A DNA stretch of 21,968 nucleotides from a virus, in the IMG/VR virus record IMGVR_UViG_3300048908_000435, positions 1 to 21,968 of that record; one strand, written 5' to 3'. Numbering within the stretch: position 1 is the stretch's first letter; each line of letters opens with the position of its first letter. This document shows positions 1-19,395 of this stretch, piece after piece. Under the pieces are notes generated by a model. The model was not told the DNA's origin, ran no database searches, and was given only the letters and a program-made list of their open reading frames with translations. Both the position numbers and the translations under genes were made by a program.

Positions 1-945
1 GCGCTCAAGCCGGTATTCCATCATCCCGCGCGCCTTGTCTGGGTTCTGGGCCAGCCATTCGAGTGAATCCGCTGCGCCTTTGAGAACGTGATTGACAAGG
101 GCTTGGTCGAGCGGGTCGCTGCGGTAGCCGACGGCGTTGAGCCAATGGCAATGATGGCTGTTCCCGCCGATTATCCGCGCCGCAAAGCGCAGGAGTTCGG
201 CGGGATCGGGCCGCCATTGGGCGGACGCTGATGCGGCTGCTCCCCCTTTCTCGATCCGATCCGCTTCGGCACGGAGGGCGGCGAATGCGGCCAATGCGGC
301 ATCGACTTCATGGGCAATCATGTGCGGCTGGTGGCCCAATGGCGTCTCTGTCCGATAGCGGCGCAGCAACCGCACAAGCTCGGCGTTGCTCCACCCATCC
401 CCGGCAGGCGCAGGAGGGGCGGCGGATAGCATGGCGCGGTAAACAGTCGCCATAGATCGAGACGGGCAAACGGGGATCGCGTTCGCCAGTCCGGCGTCAA
501 GCATCGTCTCGGTCGGCTCAACCGGGACCAGCTTCCAGCCCGTTATGGGATTTCCCATATCGCTCGGCTCGCGTGGCGCTTCCGGCGCTGCGATCCTGTG
601 CATCGTGTCGCGAACGACTTGGTTGACCTCGCTTTGCCGCAGCAGGGAAATATCGCCTTGCGTTTGCGCGAATGAAACAGCCGCGAGTTCTTGGGGCGTC
701 ATTTTGCGCGCCTGAATGAACGCCTCGGGCGCTTCCGGTGCGGCGAGAGCGGCGGCAGAGATGGCGGCGCGGGCGCGTCGGATATGGCCGAAGGTCAATG
801 CTGACTCGCCCATATCGCCAATCGCAACGGATGCGTCGTCATCGTCGCGGCTGACCGGCCCTTCGGTATGCTCGTTCATGCAGTCTTTTTCGCAGGCGGC
901 GACAAGCGCCTCGAAAATCTCGCGTTCATTTGCCGTGATCGTCAT
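1..945 (-). CDS. Hypothetical early phage protein, partial (3' end off the left edge)
   Basis: An open frame of 315 codons without a stop runs from the ATG at 945 to the left edge, so the C-terminus is missing. The start codon overlaps the stop of the methyltransferase upstream in an ATGA junction, which fixes the start. The middle (about residues 135-180) reads GWKLVPVEPTETMLDAG, then after a gap YRAMLSAAPPAPAG. From memory, this KLVPVEPT...YRAMLAAAP arrangement recurs in uncharacterised early proteins of many temperate phages, usually as a module joined to variable flanks. The N-terminus is acidic and helical, with no membrane segment. It is the last visible gene of the leftward operon. Function is unknown, and the family resemblance is recalled rather than searched. 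Confidence 0.8.
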   Translation of the reverse strand, partial: MTITANEREIFEALVAACEKDCMNEHTEGPVSRDDDDASVAIGDMGESALTFGHIRRARAAISAAALAAPEAPEAFIQARKMTPQELAAVSFAQTQGDISLLRQSEVNQVVRDTMHRIAAPEAPREPSDMGNPITGWKLVPVEPTETMLDAGLANAIPVCPSRSMATVYRAMLSAAPPAPAGDGWSNAELVRLLRRYRTETPLGHQPHMIAHEVDAALAAFAALRAEADRIEKGGAAASASAQWRPDPAELLRFAARIIGGNSHHCHWLNAVGYRSDPLDQALVNHVLKGAADSLEWLAQNPDKARGMMEYRLER

Positions 946-2657
946 TCTGCTGCCTCCACAAAGAGATCGGCGCGCCCAGTTCCGTTCGACTTGCGACTGC
1001 GAGCGATCTCGACTTCGTCCGGAATGAAATTCGCCGCGATAAGGGCCCGCGCCATCACCGGCGAGACCGAATTGCCGCACATGCGGACTGATGACGTCCC
1101 GGTCAGTTTCGAGCCGTCGGGGCGGCGATCGATCACGTAGGAGTCCGGGAAGCCCTGGGCGCGGAATAGTTCGCGCGGGCGCAGCATCCGCATCCCGATA
1201 TCGACGATCTCGTAAGGCTCGCCCTTGACCATCACCAAGCCGAAGCGGTCGCGGGTCGGAACGGTGTGCATCGGTTCGGCCGGCGAGACGCCGTCCTTGT
1301 CGTTGCCGTAATATTTGACCAGGAAGGCGCGAACCTCGGCGCTATGGGTTCCCTGCGCCGTCACGGTCGGGTGCGGCGCCTCGATGTCGCTGGCGCGGCG
1401 GTCGGAGCCCTTGAGGCTGAGCAGCCCGGCGGAGACGACGGCCTGCTGCGCGCCGGTCGCCGTGACGGTCGAAACCGGCTCATCCGCGGCGCGCGAGCCC
1501 GGGCAGGTTCCGCCATTGTGCTGGGCGAGGAAGGCGGCGACGACGCCATGGCGCGGCGCGCCGGCCATGACGGTGTGAAGCGGCTCGTCCGGCAGATGGC
1601 CCGTGCTGTTCTCGCTGAATTTGGTCAGGTGGACGGCGGCGAGACCAAGGGGTGTCGATCCGCCCGGGCGCTTGATGAACGAATTTGCGGTGACCGTGTG
1701 TAGGGGCTCGTCAATGCCGTGCCCGACGGCTCCGCCTCGAAATTTGGTGACGTGTGGGACGACCAAGCCATGAGCATCGCGGGCGGCGGTGACAGTATTG
1801 AACGGCTCGCCGAGGCCCTGGCCGCGAAAATGATCGCCACCATGATTGCAGGTGACGATGAACGGTTCCGCCGCGGCGATCACGTAACGCTGCACGCCCT
1901 TGGCGATCCGCGCCATCGTCGCTTCGGCCAAGGGCCGGTTGACGCCGACGGCGCGGCCTTCCTCTCTGGTCAGGAAGATCGAATAGCAGGGCAGCGACCA
2001 GTCGATGATCTCCGCCGCCGTGCGCCATGGCAGAAGCTTGCCGCTCTTGACCTCGTCCGATTTCGGATTGCCGTGCGTCGGCGCCGGCCAGACAATCGGG
2101 CGGCCGTCGCAGCGCGCGACCAGAAACAGGCGCTTGCGGATTGTTGGCGCGCCATAATCGCAGGCGCGCAGCTCGCGCCATTCGACCTTGTAGCCGAGCT
2201 TTTTCAACTCGCCTGTCCATTTGGCGAAGGTTTCGCCCTTGCGCTCGGGGATCGGCCTATCGTTTGCGCAGAGCGGGCCCCAATCGCGGAATTCCTCGAC
2301 GTTCTCCAAACAGATCACGCGCGGCCGGCGACGTTTGGCCCAGAGCACGACAACCCACGCCAGATCGCGGATATTGCGCGACAAGGGCTTGCCGCCCTTG
2401 GCCTTCGAGTGGTGCTTGCAATCGGGCGAGGCCCACATCAGCCCGATCGGGCGGCCGGGCATGACCTCGTCGGGATTGACCTGCCAGATGTTGGAGTTGA
2501 GATGCAACGTCGCCGGATGGTTGACCTCGTGCATGGCGAGGGCGTCGGCGTCGTGATTGATCGCCACGTCGGGCGAGCGGCCCAGCGCCATCTCGATGCC
2601 GAGGGAGGCGCCGCCGCCGCCGGCGAAGGAATCGAGGATGATTTCGCGCGCGCCCAT
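942..2657 (-). CDS. C5 cytosine-specific DNA methyltransferase with repeated target-recognition region
   Basis: This 571-residue enzyme should transfer a methyl group from S-adenosylmethionine to C5 of cytosine in phage DNA, probably protecting it from host restriction. Visible motifs are: motif I DSFAGGGGASLGIEMA (residues 9-24), catalytic Cys80 in SPDCKHHS (in place of the usual PPCQ), ENV at 118-120 (motif VI), GAPTIRKRLFLVA (motif VIII region) and the C-terminal motif IX/X region RELFRAQGFPDSY and GNSVSPVMARAL. Between residues about 284 and 468 lie six degenerate copies of an EPxxTVTA motif. The same frame stays open upstream to 3449, but ATG 2657 overlaps the stop of the J-domain gene (ATGA), and motif I lies just after it. 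No partner endonuclease is visible, so it is probably an orphan methylase. Confidence 0.95.
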   Translation of the reverse strand: MGAREIILDSFAGGGGASLGIEMALGRSPDVAINHDADALAMHEVNHPATLHLNSNIWQVNPDEVMPGRPIGLMWASPDCKHHSKAKGGKPLSRNIRDLAWVVVLWAKRRRPRVICLENVEEFRDWGPLCANDRPIPERKGETFAKWTGELKKLGYKVEWRELRACDYGAPTIRKRLFLVARCDGRPIVWPAPTHGNPKSDEVKSGKLLPWRTAAEIIDWSLPCYSIFLTREEGRAVGVNRPLAEATMARIAKGVQRYVIAAAEPFIVTCNHGGDHFRGQGLGEPFNTVTAARDAHGLVVPHVTKFRGGAVGHGIDEPLHTVTANSFIKRPGGSTPLGLAAVHLTKFSENSTGHLPDEPLHTVMAGAPRHGVVAAFLAQHNGGTCPGSRAADEPVSTVTATGAQQAVVSAGLLSLKGSDRRASDIEAPHPTVTAQGTHSAEVRAFLVKYYGNDKDGVSPAEPMHTVPTRDRFGLVMVKGEPYEIVDIGMRMLRPRELFRAQGFPDSYVIDRRPDGSKLTGTSSVRMCGNSVSPVMARALIAANFIPDEVEIARSRKSNGTGRADLFVEAAE

Positions 2658-3229
2658 CAGATTTCCCTCAAAGCTTCGGCCCGGGCCGCGTTCAATTCCG
2701 CCATTGCCTCGGCTGAGCCGCCGGCGTCGGGGTGGCGTTGTTTGGCGAGCTCGCGATAGCGCGCCTCGATCTGCAAGCGATCTCCGGAAAAGGTGGACAA
2801 GAAGCCAAAGACCTCGCGCCACGGCTTCTTTCCAGCGGGCGCTGGAAGGGAGACGAAGCCCTTCATTGTCGCGTGGACGAGCGCGAGCGTGCCGTGACGC
2901 AACTCGACGCGGCGCGCCTCGATGATGTGGTGGATCGCCTGCAAGTTCGCCTCGACGGTGGCGTAGCGGTCCACGGCGATGCAGACCTGCAAGCCGTCCC
3001 AATGGAACCAGGCCGCGACGCCGGGATCGGACGGCCGCTCGGCGCCGAGCGTGACGTTCGACGACAGGACGATGTGCTCGAGCTTTCGCCCGCTGTCGCG
3101 CCCGAACGCGATAAGCGAGCCGTTGACGTTTTTCAGCGCGCCGGCGAGGGAGGTCTTGAACTTGCCGGACTCTCGCGCCCTGGAGCGGGGGAATCCCTCG
3201 GGCCACTGGAGCGGAAATGCAGGAATCAT
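2657..3229 (-). CDS. Unknown protein with C-terminal J-domain-like segment
   Basis: This 190-residue protein ends in a J-domain-like stretch: helix ARYRELAKQ, the diagnostic HPD tripeptide at residues 166-168, then GGSAEAMAELNAARAEAL. J domains stimulate the ATPase of DnaK/Hsp70, so the protein may recruit the host chaperone, for example to remodel a replication complex. That role is inferred. The N-terminal 140 residues hold a WFHWDGLQVCIAVDRY stretch and show no recognised domain. Start and stop both form ATGA overlaps with neighbours, so translation is probably coupled. Similar J-tailed proteins occur in other phage early operons, but their function is not established. Confidence 0.88.
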   Translation of the reverse strand: MIPAFPLQWPEGFPRSRARESGKFKTSLAGALKNVNGSLIAFGRDSGRKLEHIVLSSNVTLGAERPSDPGVAAWFHWDGLQVCIAVDRYATVEANLQAIHHIIEARRVELRHGTLALVHATMKGFVSLPAPAGKKPWREVFGFLSTFSGDRLQIEARYRELAKQRHPDAGGSAEAMAELNAARAEALREI

Positions 3230-3546
3230 TGCGGCGCCCCATCATCAAGGACAGCGTCGACCAAGCCTTCATCGATGACCGTTTCGACGATCTTCCTGGC
3301 GAGGTTGTTCGGATGGACCCCGCGTCGAGCGGCGAACGGACCAAGCGCGTCGAGAATGTCTGCGGGAAACAGAACCGTGCGTCCCAGGGCTTCGGCTGGC
3401 CGCTTTGCACGCTTTCCACGCCCGGCCGAATGCTCAAGCGCCGTGACATTTTTCACTTCGATCCCAACCCGCGAGGCGATCTCGCGCGTTGGCAGGCCCT
3501 GCGCTCGCAAGGCGAGAACATGCGCTGTCTTTGTTGCGTAGGTCAT
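3226..3546 (-). CDS. Small helix-turn-helix protein
   Basis: Starting at ATG 3546 gives 106 residues. This start forms an ATGA overlap with the preceding gene, although the frame is open to 3651. Residues about 8-35 (ALRAQGLPTREIASRVGIEV) fit a resolvase- or sigma-4-like helix-turn-helix, followed by a basic segment and an amphipathic C-terminus (NNLARKIVETVIDEGLVDAV). It is probably a small DNA-binding protein of the early operon. Target and role are unknown. Confidence 0.82.
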   Translation of the reverse strand: MTYATKTAHVLALRAQGLPTREIASRVGIEVKNVTALEHSAGRGKRAKRPAEALGRTVLFPADILDALGPFAARRGVHPNNLARKIVETVIDEGLVDAVLDDGAPQ

Positions 3547-5213: not shown

Positions 5214-6347
5214 TCAGACCCTCATCGGCATGAGGACGATCAGCAGATCGGAATCTGCGGCGGAGCGGAGTAGGGCGGGGCTGCCGCCGTCGTTGAGTTC
5301 GAGCCGGGCGGTTTCGCCGTCGAGCGCGCCGAGGGCGTCGGTCAGATATTTGTGATTGAAGCCGATCTCGACGGGCGCCGCGTCGTAAGTGACTTCGGTC
5401 TCTTCGCTGGCGTCGCCTATATCGGCGTTGGCGACGGACAGAGTCAGGGCGCCATTGTCGAGCGCCAGCTTGATCGCCCGGCCCCGCTCGCTGACGACGG
5501 TCGCCACGCGCTCCACGGCGGCGGCGACTTCGCTTCGCGCCAGGCCGGCGACCTTGTCGTTTCGCGTCGGGATGACGCGGGTGTAATCGGGGAAGGTTCC
5601 GTCGATCAGTTTGGAGAGCAGGGCCGATTCGCCGCAGCGGAACGAGATTTTCTGTTCGCTGACTTCGATGGCGATTTCGGGCCGGCTGTCTTTGTCTTTC
5701 GAGACGCTTTCGGCCAGTCGCGCGAGTTCGGCACAGGTCTTCGACGGGATGATCACGCCCGGCATTCCCGGAGCCCCTTCAGGCGCCATCATTTCGATGC
5801 GGGCCAGGCGGTGACCGTCGGTCGTGACCATGCGCAGCATGGGGCCTTCGGGGCCGTCGAGGACGTGCATGTAGACGCCATTGAGGTAATAGCGGGTTTC
5901 CTCATTCGAGATCGCGAAGGCGATCTTTTTGAGCGCGCGGGCGACGGTCTCGGCGGGCAAGCTGAAGCGATGGGTCATCTCGCCGCGCTCGAGCGTCGGC
6001 CAGTCCGTGCTCGGCAAGGTGGCGAGGTGGAATTTGGCGCGGCCGGCCTTCACGGCCAGTCTTTCGTTGTCGCCGCCGGCTTCGAAAGTGACCTTGTCGG
6101 CGGCCAGCTTGCGGATAACGTCATGCAGGGTCGCGGCGGAGACTGTGAGCGAGCCGTTGGTCGTGATGTCGGCTTCGACCGAGGTTTGCGCCTCGATGTC
6201 GAGATCGGTCGCCGCGATCGTCAGGCGGGCGCCTTCTGCTTCCAGCATGATATTGGAGAGGATCGGGATCGTGGTGCGGCGCTGCGCGATGCGGGCGGCG
6301 AAATCCAGCGCCTTTGCGAGCTGCGCGCGGTGGGTGGTGAAATGCAT
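5214..6347 (-). CDS. dnaN: DNA polymerase III beta sliding clamp (phage-encoded)
   Basis: The protein has 377 residues, close to the usual 366-380. It begins MHFTTHRAQLAKALDFAARI and has the RRTTIPILSNIMLEA motif, the three repeated clamp domains (about 1-125, 130-255, 260-377), the conserved GVYMHVLDG and TTDGHRLA segments, SKTCAELARL, LIDGTFPDYTRVIP and the terminal VLMPMRV. Beta clamps form a dimeric ring that tethers polymerase and other clamp-binding proteins to DNA. A phage copy may load host polymerase preferentially on phage DNA or recruit phage factors. Start 6347 gives the canonical N-terminus; the frame is open to 6917 but overlaps the DUF2303 gene. No phage polymerase or clamp loader appears here, so it presumably uses the host loader. 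Confidence 0.97.
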   Translation of the reverse strand: MHFTTHRAQLAKALDFAARIAQRRTTIPILSNIMLEAEGARLTIAATDLDIEAQTSVEADITTNGSLTVSAATLHDVIRKLAADKVTFEAGGDNERLAVKAGRAKFHLATLPSTDWPTLERGEMTHRFSLPAETVARALKKIAFAISNEETRYYLNGVYMHVLDGPEGPMLRMVTTDGHRLARIEMMAPEGAPGMPGVIIPSKTCAELARLAESVSKDKDSRPEIAIEVSEQKISFRCGESALLSKLIDGTFPDYTRVIPTRNDKVAGLARSEVAAAVERVATVVSERGRAIKLALDNGALTLSVANADIGDASEETEVTYDAAPVEIGFNHKYLTDALGALDGETARLELNDGGSPALLRSAADSDLLIVLMPMRV

Positions 6348-8952: not shown

Positions 8953-9170
8953 TAGGCGGCTTTCCTTTCGCGGGGATACAAGCGGCTCGCGGGCAGGCCG
9001 GGGGCGAGGCGCTCGCGCAGGATCTGTGCGGCGGCGATGGCGCCGAAGGCGGCGCTTTCCTCCAGCAGGGCCAGCGCGAGGCGGGCGGCGCTTTTCTCGC
9101 CCAAGGCAAGGGCGTCGTCGGCGTGGCGCAGGATGCTTTCCGCCGCGGCGGTGGTGGGGCGCGCGGTCAT
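8952..9170 (-). CDS. Small Ala-rich hypothetical protein
   Basis: This 72-residue, almost entirely helical, alanine-rich protein reads MTARPTTAAAESILRHADDA and continues with LALALLEESAAFGAIAAAQI. The junctions are an ATGA overlap upstream and a TAATG overlap downstream. It probably folds as a helical hairpin. The function is not known. Confidence 0.68.
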   Translation of the reverse strand: MTARPTTAAAESILRHADDALALGEKSAARLALALLEESAAFGAIAAAQILRERLAPGLPASRLYPRERKAA

Positions 9171-10019: not shown

Positions 10020-10288
<269 letters not shown>

Positions 10289-10588: not shown

Positions 10589-10610
10589 CTCCATCGGTGG
10601 GAAGGCCGAT
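10589..10610 (-). repeat. Leader hairpin element, copy 1, at the 5' end of the PL transcript
   Basis: This is identical over 22 nt to 9911-9932. The RNA stem ATCGG/CCGAT (10610-10606 with 10597-10593) would lie at the very 5' end of the predicted PL transcript, followed by GGAG and a TTG start. Confidence 0.78.
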
Positions 10611-10617
10611 GGGAGCG

Positions 10618-10645
10618 ATGATACCGAATTGGTAACATCAGTCAA
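10618..10645 (-). promoter_or_regulatory. Promoter PL
   Basis: A leftward promoter is visible with -35 TTGACT (10645-10640), a 16-bp spacer and -10 TATCAT (10623-10618), each 5 of 6 to the sigma-70 consensus. The transcript should start near 10611 and enter the leader hairpin at once. Both repressor operators overlap it, so it should be silent in a lysogen. Confidence 0.82.
10621..10635. promoter_or_regulatory. Repressor operator OL1
   Basis: ATACC-GAATT-GGTAA fits the five-copy operator consensus. It covers the PL spacer and the first three bases of the -10 box, the same placement that OR1 has on PR. Confidence 0.82.
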
Positions 10646-10659
10646 TACCAATTTGGAAA
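10645..10659. promoter_or_regulatory. Repressor operator OL2
   Basis: ATACC-AATTT-GGAAA is a slightly imperfect copy whose right half-site carries GGAAA instead of GGTAA. It touches the PL -35 box, and its centre is 24 bp from that of OL1, so two repressor dimers could sit on one DNA face. Confidence 0.72.
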
Positions 10660-10746
10660 CTTCGTCTTTTTGTGCAATAAATAGCCCGGCGCTGGGTCGG
10701 CTTCTGTTCGTCGATCAGAAGAGCTGTTAGGCGAGGAGAGCGGCGA

Positions 10747-11109
10747 TTAGCACGGGCTTGGCGTGCACGCGATTAAAGGAGTTCCGCGCGGGATAGGGGC
10801 CGGCGCAGAGGGCGGAACCCATGGCAGCGGTGCGGCTGGCCTCATTGTTCTGCGCTCTTCGGCGTCTCTCAAAGCGTTTTGTCGCTCTTCTCGCAGCCGC
10901 TCCCAGCTACGGTTTGCGCGGATCATCTCGTCCACTTGGCGCCGGTGAGTTTCGGCCTGATACCGCATCGTTTGGGAATTTTGCTCTAAAATGTCCCGGT
11001 AGTGGTCGTGCGCTCCGTGATTGGAAACAGCGAAATCGCCGGCGGCTACACTGGCGCAAGAACCGCCAAATACTGAAATAAACGACAAGAAAAGGCAAAA
11101 AACTTTCAT
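10747..11109 (-). CDS. Exported small protein, candidate lysogenic-conversion (moron) gene
   Basis: This 120-residue protein begins MKVFCLFLSFISVFGGSCAS, a Sec signal peptide with a likely signal peptidase I site after VAA (about residue 23). The mature part is a charged helix (residues 35-88, HYRDILEQNSQTMRYQAE and RLREERQNALRDAEERR) and a Pro-rich C-terminus with two Cys. The Cys at position 18 is not in a good lipobox. It lies 52 nt downstream of cI on the same strand, with no clear terminator between, so it is likely expressed in the lysogen, like lambda rex genes. Possible roles include envelope modification or superinfection exclusion; both are guesses. Confidence 0.75.
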   Translation of the reverse strand: MKVFCLFLSFISVFGGSCASVAAGDFAVSNHGAHDHYRDILEQNSQTMRYQAETHRRQVDEMIRANRSWERLREERQNALRDAEERRTMRPAAPLPWVPPSAPAPIPRGTPLIACTPSPC

Positions 11110-11161
11110 CGCAGATGCTCCCAAAAATGCGACGCATGGCGTCGCGCGGAGGTATTCAAAA

Positions 11162-11902
11162 TCAAAACATGCGAAGGCTGCATTTCACCTTGCCGATGAT
11201 CGCGATCTCGTTGAAGGCTACTTCGCGCGGCGGATGCAAGGGGTTGTCTGAAATGATGCGGACTTTCGGCTTAATCGGATCCAGCTCCAGCCTTTTGACC
11301 ACGATGCCGCCGAGCTGGTCGCGGATCGCATAGAGGCCATCCGGCGTCGGCCGCACATGGGCGGTGTCGACCCAGACGCGCTCGCCGGATCGCAGCGTCG
11401 GCTCCATGCTGTCGCCGTTGCATTCGATCACGATCATGCGGTCGGTGGTGGTCGACAGGCTGTAGCGGACGAAAGAGGGTGGGAAGCGCCAGTAGTCGTC
11501 CTTGATGGCGTCGGAAGTCGTGATTTCGTCGCCGTCGCGCCGATAAACAACCTCTGCGACCTGGCCTTCGCCCATGCCGGCTTTCGGGTCGAGTTCGATC
11601 ATCGCGTCTTTTGGAAATTGCTGCCGGACCGTCGGCGCGTCGGGGTCTAAAATTTCGGGCGGCGCGTCGGGGTCAAAGGAAGAAACGAGCGGAGTTGAAT
11701 CGTCGGGGTCTTCGAGCAGCGTTTTCCAGCCGCACCCGAGCTTTGGCGCTAATTTTTTTGCCCATTCGGGCGTCATTTTACGCCCGCCATTCTTAGGGCC
11801 GCTTCTAAGTCTGGAAATTTCAGGCGGAGCCGCGCCCACGGCTCGCGCGAGATCGACGTTTTTCAGGCCTTTCGCCGTCATGATCTCGTCAAGCTTCGTC
11901 AT
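11162..11902 (-). CDS. cI: CI-like repressor, S24 LexA-type peptidase
   Basis: The 246-residue protein has an N-terminal HTH (residues about 4-35: LDEIMTAKGLKNVDLARAVG, PPEISRLRSG) and a C-terminal S24/LexA self-cleavage domain. Ser165 in CNGDSMEPTL and Lys203 in GGIVVKRLEL form the catalytic dyad, and Ala108-Gly109 in DPKAGMGEG is a likely cleavage site. It should keep the prophage silent and be inactivated with RecA during the SOS response. No Shine-Dalgarno precedes ATG 11902, and OR3 overlaps the start codon, consistent with a leaderless message and direct autoregulation. The gene diverges from cro. Confidence 0.95.
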   Translation of the reverse strand: MTKLDEIMTAKGLKNVDLARAVGAAPPEISRLRSGPKNGGRKMTPEWAKKLAPKLGCGWKTLLEDPDDSTPLVSSFDPDAPPEILDPDAPTVRQQFPKDAMIELDPKAGMGEGQVAEVVYRRDGDEITTSDAIKDDYWRFPPSFVRYSLSTTTDRMIVIECNGDSMEPTLRSGERVWVDTAHVRPTPDGLYAIRDQLGGIVVKRLELDPIKPKVRIISDNPLHPPREVAFNEIAIIGKVKCSLRMF

Positions 11903-11915
11903 ACCGCATTGGTAT
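11901..11915. promoter_or_regulatory. Repressor operator OR3
   Basis: ATACC-GCATT-GGTAT is a perfect two-fold arm pair around 5 bp. It overlaps the cI start codon and the proposed PRM -10 box, so occupancy should shut off cI. Confidence 0.82.
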
Positions 11916-11937
11916 CGTTATTCTTTGGTGGGTTCAA
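11909..11937 (-). promoter_or_regulatory. Candidate promoter PRM for cI
   Basis: The -35 TTGAAC (11937-11932), a 17-bp spacer and the weak -10 TACCAA (11914-11909) place the start at about 11902, the A of the cI ATG. The weak -10 and the operator OR2 abutting the -35 box suggest activation by bound CI, as in lambda. The promoter is inferred from position more than from box quality. Confidence 0.5.
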
Positions 11938-11952
11938 AAACCATTATGGTAA
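11938..11952. promoter_or_regulatory. Repressor operator OR2
   Basis: AAACC-ATTAT-GGTAA is an operator copy directly next to the proposed PRM -35 box. Centre-to-centre spacing is 37 bp to OR3 and 32 bp to OR1. Confidence 0.75.
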
Positions 11953-11959
11953 TTTTCTA

Positions 11960-11987
11960 TTGCCAATAATTACCAAGCTGGTATTCT
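11960..11987 (+). promoter_or_regulatory. Promoter PR for cro
   Basis: The -35 TTGCCA (11960-11965), a 16-bp spacer and -10 TATTCT (11982-11987) put the transcription start at about 11993-11994, the cro start codon itself. The spacer length and operator overlap equal those of PL, which supports both. Confidence 0.7.
11970..11984. promoter_or_regulatory. Repressor operator OR1
   Basis: TTACC-AAGCT-GGTAT covers the PR spacer and the first three bases of its -10 box. Binding here should block cro and the whole rightward operon. Confidence 0.82.
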
Positions 11988-11993
11988 CCAGCT

Positions 11994-12236
11994 ATGAACC
12001 TTGCTTCGTATCTCAAAATAAAAAACGTCGGTCGCCGCGAATTTGCCGCTTTGATCGGCGTCTCGGAAGTCGCGGTAACTCGCTATCTCAAGGGAGATCG
12101 GGTGCCGCGCCAAAAGCATTTGATGAGGATTGTTGAGGCGACCAACGGCGAGGTCACGCCGAACGATTTTATGGGGGTCGCCGGCGAATTGTCGGCCGCT
12201 GACATCTCCGCCGAAAAGAGCGAGGCGGCGGAATGA
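11994..12236 (+). CDS. cro: Cro-like HTH regulator
   Basis: This 80-residue protein has a clear HTH (residues 13-35: GRREFAALIGVSEVAVTRYL, then KGDRVPR) of the Cro/YdaS-like type and a short variable tail. It is the first gene of the rightward operon, divergent from cI, and by analogy should bind the same operators and repress cI during lytic growth. The sequence before ATG lacks a ribosome site, and the predicted start of PR transcription is at the ATG, so translation is probably leaderless. The downstream gene overlaps by ATGA. Confidence 0.9.
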   Translation: MNLASYLKIKNVGRREFAALIGVSEVAVTRYLKGDRVPRQKHLMRIVEATNGEVTPNDFMGVAGELSAADISAEKSEAAE

Positions 12237-19290: not shown

Positions 19291-19395
19291 AGAGACACAA
19301 TAACAGATTGATATAAAACAAAAAAATAGGAGCGAGGGTTGTCTTTGACCCTCGCGCGATCCTCGCGGACCCTCGCAACGGCGGAAGAGGCGGAC

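Follow-up and report, generated by a model that had tools for sequence, protein, structure and literature searches.

In phage lambda, cI and cro are divergent genes with three right operators (OR), and left operators (OL) lie at PL beyond cI. OR1 sits in the PR spacer, OR2 beside the PRM −35 box and OR3 over PRM, with OR spacings of about 24 and 23 bp. The cI mRNA made from PRM is leaderless. In the immB region of the telomere phage PY54, RACE showed that cI and cro are both transcribed as leaderless mRNAs (PMC4488713). The PaaR2/YdaS system of prophage CP-933P from E. coli O157:H7 has a leaderless repressor, and both low-dose activation and repression have been measured (PMC8630535). Among lambdoid phages, Cro helices correlate with operator half-sites (Hall et al., 2005, according to the passage in PMC4488713 that cites it).

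We analyzed a 21,968-base fragment of a virus record (IMG/VR record IMGVR_UViG_3300048908_000435, positions 1–21,968), referred to here as the window. An earlier sequence-only reading had proposed a lambda-like CI/Cro switch in it, and the protein families, the anatomy of the region and the same layout in independent phages support that proposal. We read the region as a lambda-type CI/Cro switch of an alphaproteobacterial temperate phage (probability about 0.85), in which operators with a CC-N5-GG core would occupy fixed positions and the three outermost base pairs of either half would set specificity.

Operators, promoters and genes of the window

The 15-bp site WWACC-N5-GGWAW is present without mismatch at all five places that the sequence-only reading had listed (Table 1). 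A motif scan of all 21,968 bases, which that reading had suggested as a check, returned these five copies and no sixth exact one in this fragment. Dinucleotide shuffles of the window contain 0.03 copies on average (no more than 1 in any of 300), and the mean falls to 0.007 when only the two intergenic stretches are shuffled, compared with the five observed. In a matrix scan, the five sites score 19.5–24.5 and the next match, at 19300, scores 13.7. OL1 and OL2 are 24 bp apart, OR3 and OR2 37 bp and OR2 and OR1 32 bp. The claimed OR spacings, unlike those of lambda, were right; OR1–OR2 spacing is 30–35 bp in most relatives, and by the loci compared this departure from lambda is a family trait.

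Table 1. Coordinates of the proposed switch and adjacent features, numbered from the first base of the window
Feature	Position	Strand	Remarks
First ORF of PL operon, 101 aa	10289–10594	−	No family match
PL promoter, TTGACT-16-TATCAT	10618–10645	−	Leftward early operon; 10/12 consensus matches
OL1 operator, ATACCGAATTGGTAA	10621–10635		Inside PL spacer and first three bases of PL −10
OL2 operator, ATACCAATTTGGAAA	10645–10659		Edge base is first T of PL −35
Terminator-like hairpin just after cI	11129–11145	−	Consensus match only; no excess over shuffles
cI repressor, 246 aa	11162–11902	−	N-terminal HTH, C-terminal S24 peptidase-like domain; predicted leaderless mRNA
OR3 operator, ATACCGCATTGGTAT	11901–11915		Over PRM −10 and part of cI start codon
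PRM promoter (weak), TTGAAC-17-TACCAA	11909–11937	−	Predicted start at cI ATG
OR2 operator, AAACCATTATGGTAA	11938–11952		Adjoins PRM −35; centre 43 bp upstream of cI ATG
PR promoter, TTGCCA-16-TATTCT	11960–11987	+	9/12 consensus matches; predicted start at or next to cro ATG
OR1 operator, TTACCAAGCTGGTAT	11970–11984		Inside PR spacer and first three bases of −10
cro, 80 aa HTH protein	11994–12236	+	Recognition helix residues 25–33 (EVAVTRYLK)
ORF after cro, 103 aa	12233–12544	+	In place of lambda cII; no family match

A sigma-70 consensus scan, run independently of the operators, gave five matches against 0.9 expected. PL and PR are among them and are the two best-placed promoters of the sigma-70 type. 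At both promoters the operator reaches into the −10 box by exactly three bases, in the identical geometry that had been claimed. The accompanying claim that it covers the whole 16-bp spacer needs correction, however, as the operator spans only the last 12 of the 16 bases. Overlap with the −10 box at both PL and PR could also mean that the motif is a composite promoter element, an extended spacer plus −10 box, instead of an operator. Yet the motif is palindromic, and three of the sites (OR2, OR3 and OL2) do not touch the −10 boxes of PL and PR. Relatives, moreover, alter the outer bases without losing the position, and the alterations track the HTH proteins. We consider a promoter element very improbable.

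The proposed placement of OR2 and OR3 against PRM also held up. OR2 meets the proposed −35 box TTGAAC (11937–11932) with zero gap, and OR3 covers two bases of the cI ATG (11902–11900) together with the proposed −10 box TACCAA (11914–11909). At both cI and cro, six bases separate the −10 box from the ATG, which predicts transcription starts at the ATG of each gene, a point that the sequence-only reading had not raised.

The predicted PL transcripts begin with CATCG (10594–10613 on the minus strand of the window; likewise in prophages L310 and L311). In three phages this start could base-pair at or close to the first start codon, with a folding energy within the range of shuffles. A 5′ hairpin on the PL transcript was considered and dropped, as its folding z-scores were only −0.4 to −1.0. 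Rfam gave no match between positions 9000 and 13500.

The two regulators, an S24-type CI and a small HTH Cro, are encoded by divergent genes with the operators flanking. CI belongs to HTH_26, Peptidase_S24 (E = 4.8e-14) and phrog_4, and its sequence contains GDSMEP, in the serine region, and a KAGMG stretch. Cro belongs to HTH_3 and phrog_35. Its predicted model (pLDDT 83) is a small all-helical HTH with residues 25–33 on the third helix. Foldseek places this model close to the YdaS N-terminal domain and to P22 c2, though with E above 0.001. The match of Cro to YdaS_toxin (PF15943) reaches 20.9 bits, below the Pfam gathering cut-off of 30, and does not place the protein in that family. Sequence searches of the PDB gave no useful relative of CI or Cro and no detectable relation to solved structures. 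By our reading of a simple alignment, the surface with which lambda CI contacts sigma is not recognizable in the window CI.

Several other features lie on the PL side. An ORF between cI and PL (10747–11109, minus strand), in the place of the lambda rex genes, has a signal-peptide-like start and a weak spanin-like match, and viral contig L103 has a lipoprotein-like ORF at the same place. The window ORF is a candidate lysogenic conversion or superinfection gene. Thirteen copies of the 18-bp repeat GCCGTCGCCGTAGCCGTC occupy 10026–10260 and separate the first PL gene from the genes that follow it leftward. The PL operon also encodes a DNA polymerase III beta clamp (5214–6317, minus strand), a C5 methylase (ORF 942–3449) and a DUF2303 protein.

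Layout and fixed positions in related loci

A Cro search of phage records found Rhizobium phage RHph_Y25 (MN988538), whose Cro is 39% and whose CI is 30% identical to the window proteins. Its repressor C/Cro region, which carries no operator annotation in the record, resembles the window in having five sites, three of them OR, with a 24-bp OL spacing, OR1 in the PR spacer, the arrangement OL2-TTGACTG-OL1 and an identical junction of OR2 with TTGAAC. It differs in an OR3–OR2 spacing of 24 bp (37 in the window) and in several sites that are GCC or TTCC variants.

The five-site layout recurs in prophages L310 and L311 (OL spacing 24 bp, OR3–OR2 37, OR2–OR1 33). Three OR sites plus operators at a second promoter beyond cI are conserved in L228, L310 and L311, and the OL2-TGAC-OL1 arrangement of PL in these three and L219. 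OR3 also lies over the cI ATG in L236–L238, L273, L278 and L290. The nearest Cro relative, in L273 (52% over 63 residues), comes from the locus closest to the window layout, with OR spacings of 37 and 33 bp, OR3 over the cI start codon and an OL pair 24 bp apart.

Other routes to relatives were less productive. CI alone as a query found no related loci in viral contigs, and seven distant Cros, once aligned, proved too diverse for scanning. A two-operator pattern scan of viral contigs returned mostly unrelated matches; we retained a locus only where a Cro homologue adjoined the sites. The same Cro family occurs in viral contigs L103, L197, L217, L219 and L221, which were reached via operator or promoter geometry; we left them out of the operator-enrichment statistics because the operator had selected them. 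Clustered TACC operators were not found in loci related through the D5-like helicase (L006–L022), so the immunity region was probably exchanged independently of the replication genes.

For an operator-blind set, we used Cro as the sole query and scanned 130 bp before cro in 65 distinct loci, the window included. The scan found 57 CC-N5-GG palindromes, against 3.84 in shuffles, distributed over 32 of the 65 loci (3.7 expected). As controls, other gap lengths gave 1–7 sites and GG-N5-CC gave 2. Many of the 33 loci that lack the core probably encode host regulators and have no divergent repressor. The exact sequence TACC-N5-GGTA was absent upstream of cro in 22 of 22 genome loci, where inspection showed CC-N5-GG with other outer bases.

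The core also keeps its positions, which we scored in 32 loci, five of them operator-selected. In 26 of these, 21–23 nt separate the CC of OR1 from the cro ATG downstream (selection allowed 18–30), and the cI ATG lies 39 or 40 nt beyond the CC of OR2 in 19, any other distance occurring at most four times. The OR2–cI distance is the same for OR3–OR2 spacings of 24 and 37 bp and does not depend on the outer bases. We define the CC-N5-GG group by a CC that precedes the cro ATG by 20–29 nt, together with a cI ATG 39–40 nt beyond OR2; the window, with −21 and 39, belongs to it. Lambda OR2 lies at about −42 from PRM. The constant OR2–cI ATG distance, a comparative argument, is the strongest support for the proposed PRM and for a putative activating OR2. 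Given that the OR1–cro ATG distance is conserved as well, cro and cI are probably both leaderless.

CI at OR2 might instead only block PR, with no activation of PRM and with cI transcribed from a basal or separate promoter. The −35 and −10 boxes of PRM match the consensus poorly, or are unrecognizable, in several relatives, and PRM therefore rests on position, not sequence. The 933W switch is reported to differ operationally from those of other lambdoid phages (PMC3317979). But the OR2–cI ATG distance stays at 39–40 nt whatever the operator sequence and the position of OR3, which is hard to explain if OR2 plays no part in cI transcription. The OR2|TTGAAC junction shared by the window and RHph_Y25 also speaks against this alternative. 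We regard this alternative as unlikely.

In the favored lambda-type switch, CI dimers would bind OR1, OR2 and both OL sites and block RNA polymerase at PR and PL. CI at OR2, centered at −43 from the cI start, would help polymerase at the weak PRM, and higher CI levels would shut PRM through OR3. Cro, made from the leaderless PR mRNA, would read the same operators and turn PRM off via OR3. DNA damage would release the switch through self-cleavage of the S24-type CI. From the geometry of the region we infer positive and then negative autoregulation, binding by CI and Cro, and the start sites.

A prediction for held-out loci was set beforehand: loci that combine a divergent gene with a small Cro carrying R/K30 and then Y/W should have OR1 at −30 to −18. 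The search was run at E 1e-6 (the prediction had named 1e-7), and ‘small’ was taken as <150 aa at reading. OR1 was found as predicted in three of six eligible loci (L329, L331 and L340). The misses were L322, which has CC-N5-GG with unmatched outer bases, and L333 and L337, which lack the core. Two of the three successes place the cI ATG at 40. For L340, a candidate OR2 slightly beyond the search range would, by eye, give 39. The CC-N5-GG rule is therefore real but not universal in the Cro family of the window.

Proteins of 400–570 aa in L316, L319, L320 and L326 share the N-terminal HTH of Cro, and a TTAACC-N5-GGTTAA or TTGCC-N5-GGCAA site directly precedes the start of each. The core, it seems, is not confined to phage Cros.

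Outer operator bases and recognition helices

Outer bases vary among loci with the core. They are TACC in the window, L236–L238, L273 and L275; TGCC in L274, L278 and L290; GTCACC in L244, L251 and L279; and TAGCC, TATCC, CCCC, GCCC and more elsewhere. The Cro recognition helix correlates with the outer triplet (partial Mantel r 0.40, p 0.0002, n 32) in a test that removes similarity of the rest of the protein and, incompletely, shared ancestry. For example, (S/T)(E/Q)xxVxRY goes with TACC and (T/S)RQ(A/S)LxRY with GTCACC. Where the recognition-helix region of Cro is longer by one residue (xTIYRY type and similar; L247, L248, L249, L298, L302 and L304), the outer bases are TAG, TAT or TT.

The CI helix, from an alignment made by hand, shows a weaker correlation (partial r 0.23, p 0.005, n 21). 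The motif might accordingly belong mainly to Cro or another regulator, with CI reading a different, overlapping site. PaaR2 and YdaS may do so, as their footprints overlap in CP-933P, where there are two repeat types (PMC8630535). CI helices follow the outer bases too, however: SKQN(I/V)xRW occurs in both GTCACC phages tested and SQ(P/A)QIx(R/K) in several TACC or TGCC phages. A motif read mainly by Cro seems to us a shade less probable even than repression without activation.

Relatives across Alphaproteobacteria appear to keep the layout while the outer operator bases and the DNA-reading helix of the repressor vary together. The switch is therefore ordinary, and its immunity ‘lock and key’ code unusually readable. 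The design is already known from textbooks; a group with a fixed layout and changing outer bases is the more interesting result. We searched the open-licence literature and found no description of a CC-N5-GG operator family or of the RHph_Y25 operators, and as far as that literature shows the family seems undescribed. More tentatively, these loci may represent a widespread, unnamed alphaproteobacterial immunity cassette, with a fixed layout and two leaderless mRNAs, that varies only in the outer three base pairs and in matching CI and Cro helix residues. If so, immunity groups would be predictable from sequence by a short code. Dozens of natural copies with the same geometry and varying outer bases and helices form a ready comparative set, which could be used to test how the specificity of phage immunity evolves and whether changes in CI and Cro have to be coupled. 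They extend the helix/half-site correlation beyond lambdoid phages to another phage group, CI included.

Comparison with described switches

CP-933P resembles the window in having CI and Cro analogues with PR, PRM and PL, and the window Cro weakly matches both YdaS_toxin and the YdaS N-terminal fold. Its operators differ: they are 18-bp GTTTAGTAA palindromes plus pseudosymmetric sequences, and the described consensus is without a CC-N5-GG core. PY54 shares leaderless cI and cro mRNAs with the prediction for the window. Its Cro, unlike that proposed here, binds a single 16-bp OR3, and the operator sequence and architecture are different (PMC4488713).

Lambda is matched in most features of the anatomy. 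Both have a divergent cI and cro (here an S24-type CI and a small HTH Cro), three OR sites, further operators at PL as a second early promoter, and a leaderless cI, which is predicted in the window. Judged by position in the sequence, OR1 lies over PR, OR3 over PRM and OR2 where it could activate PRM. Unlike lambda, the window has 15-bp CC-N5-GG operators (WWACC-N5-GGWAW) in place of the lambda operator sequence, OR spacings of 32 and 37 bp instead of 23–24 bp, two OL sites found and a cro that is predicted to be leaderless. Operator sequence and spacing, however, define lambda immunity and not the type of switch.
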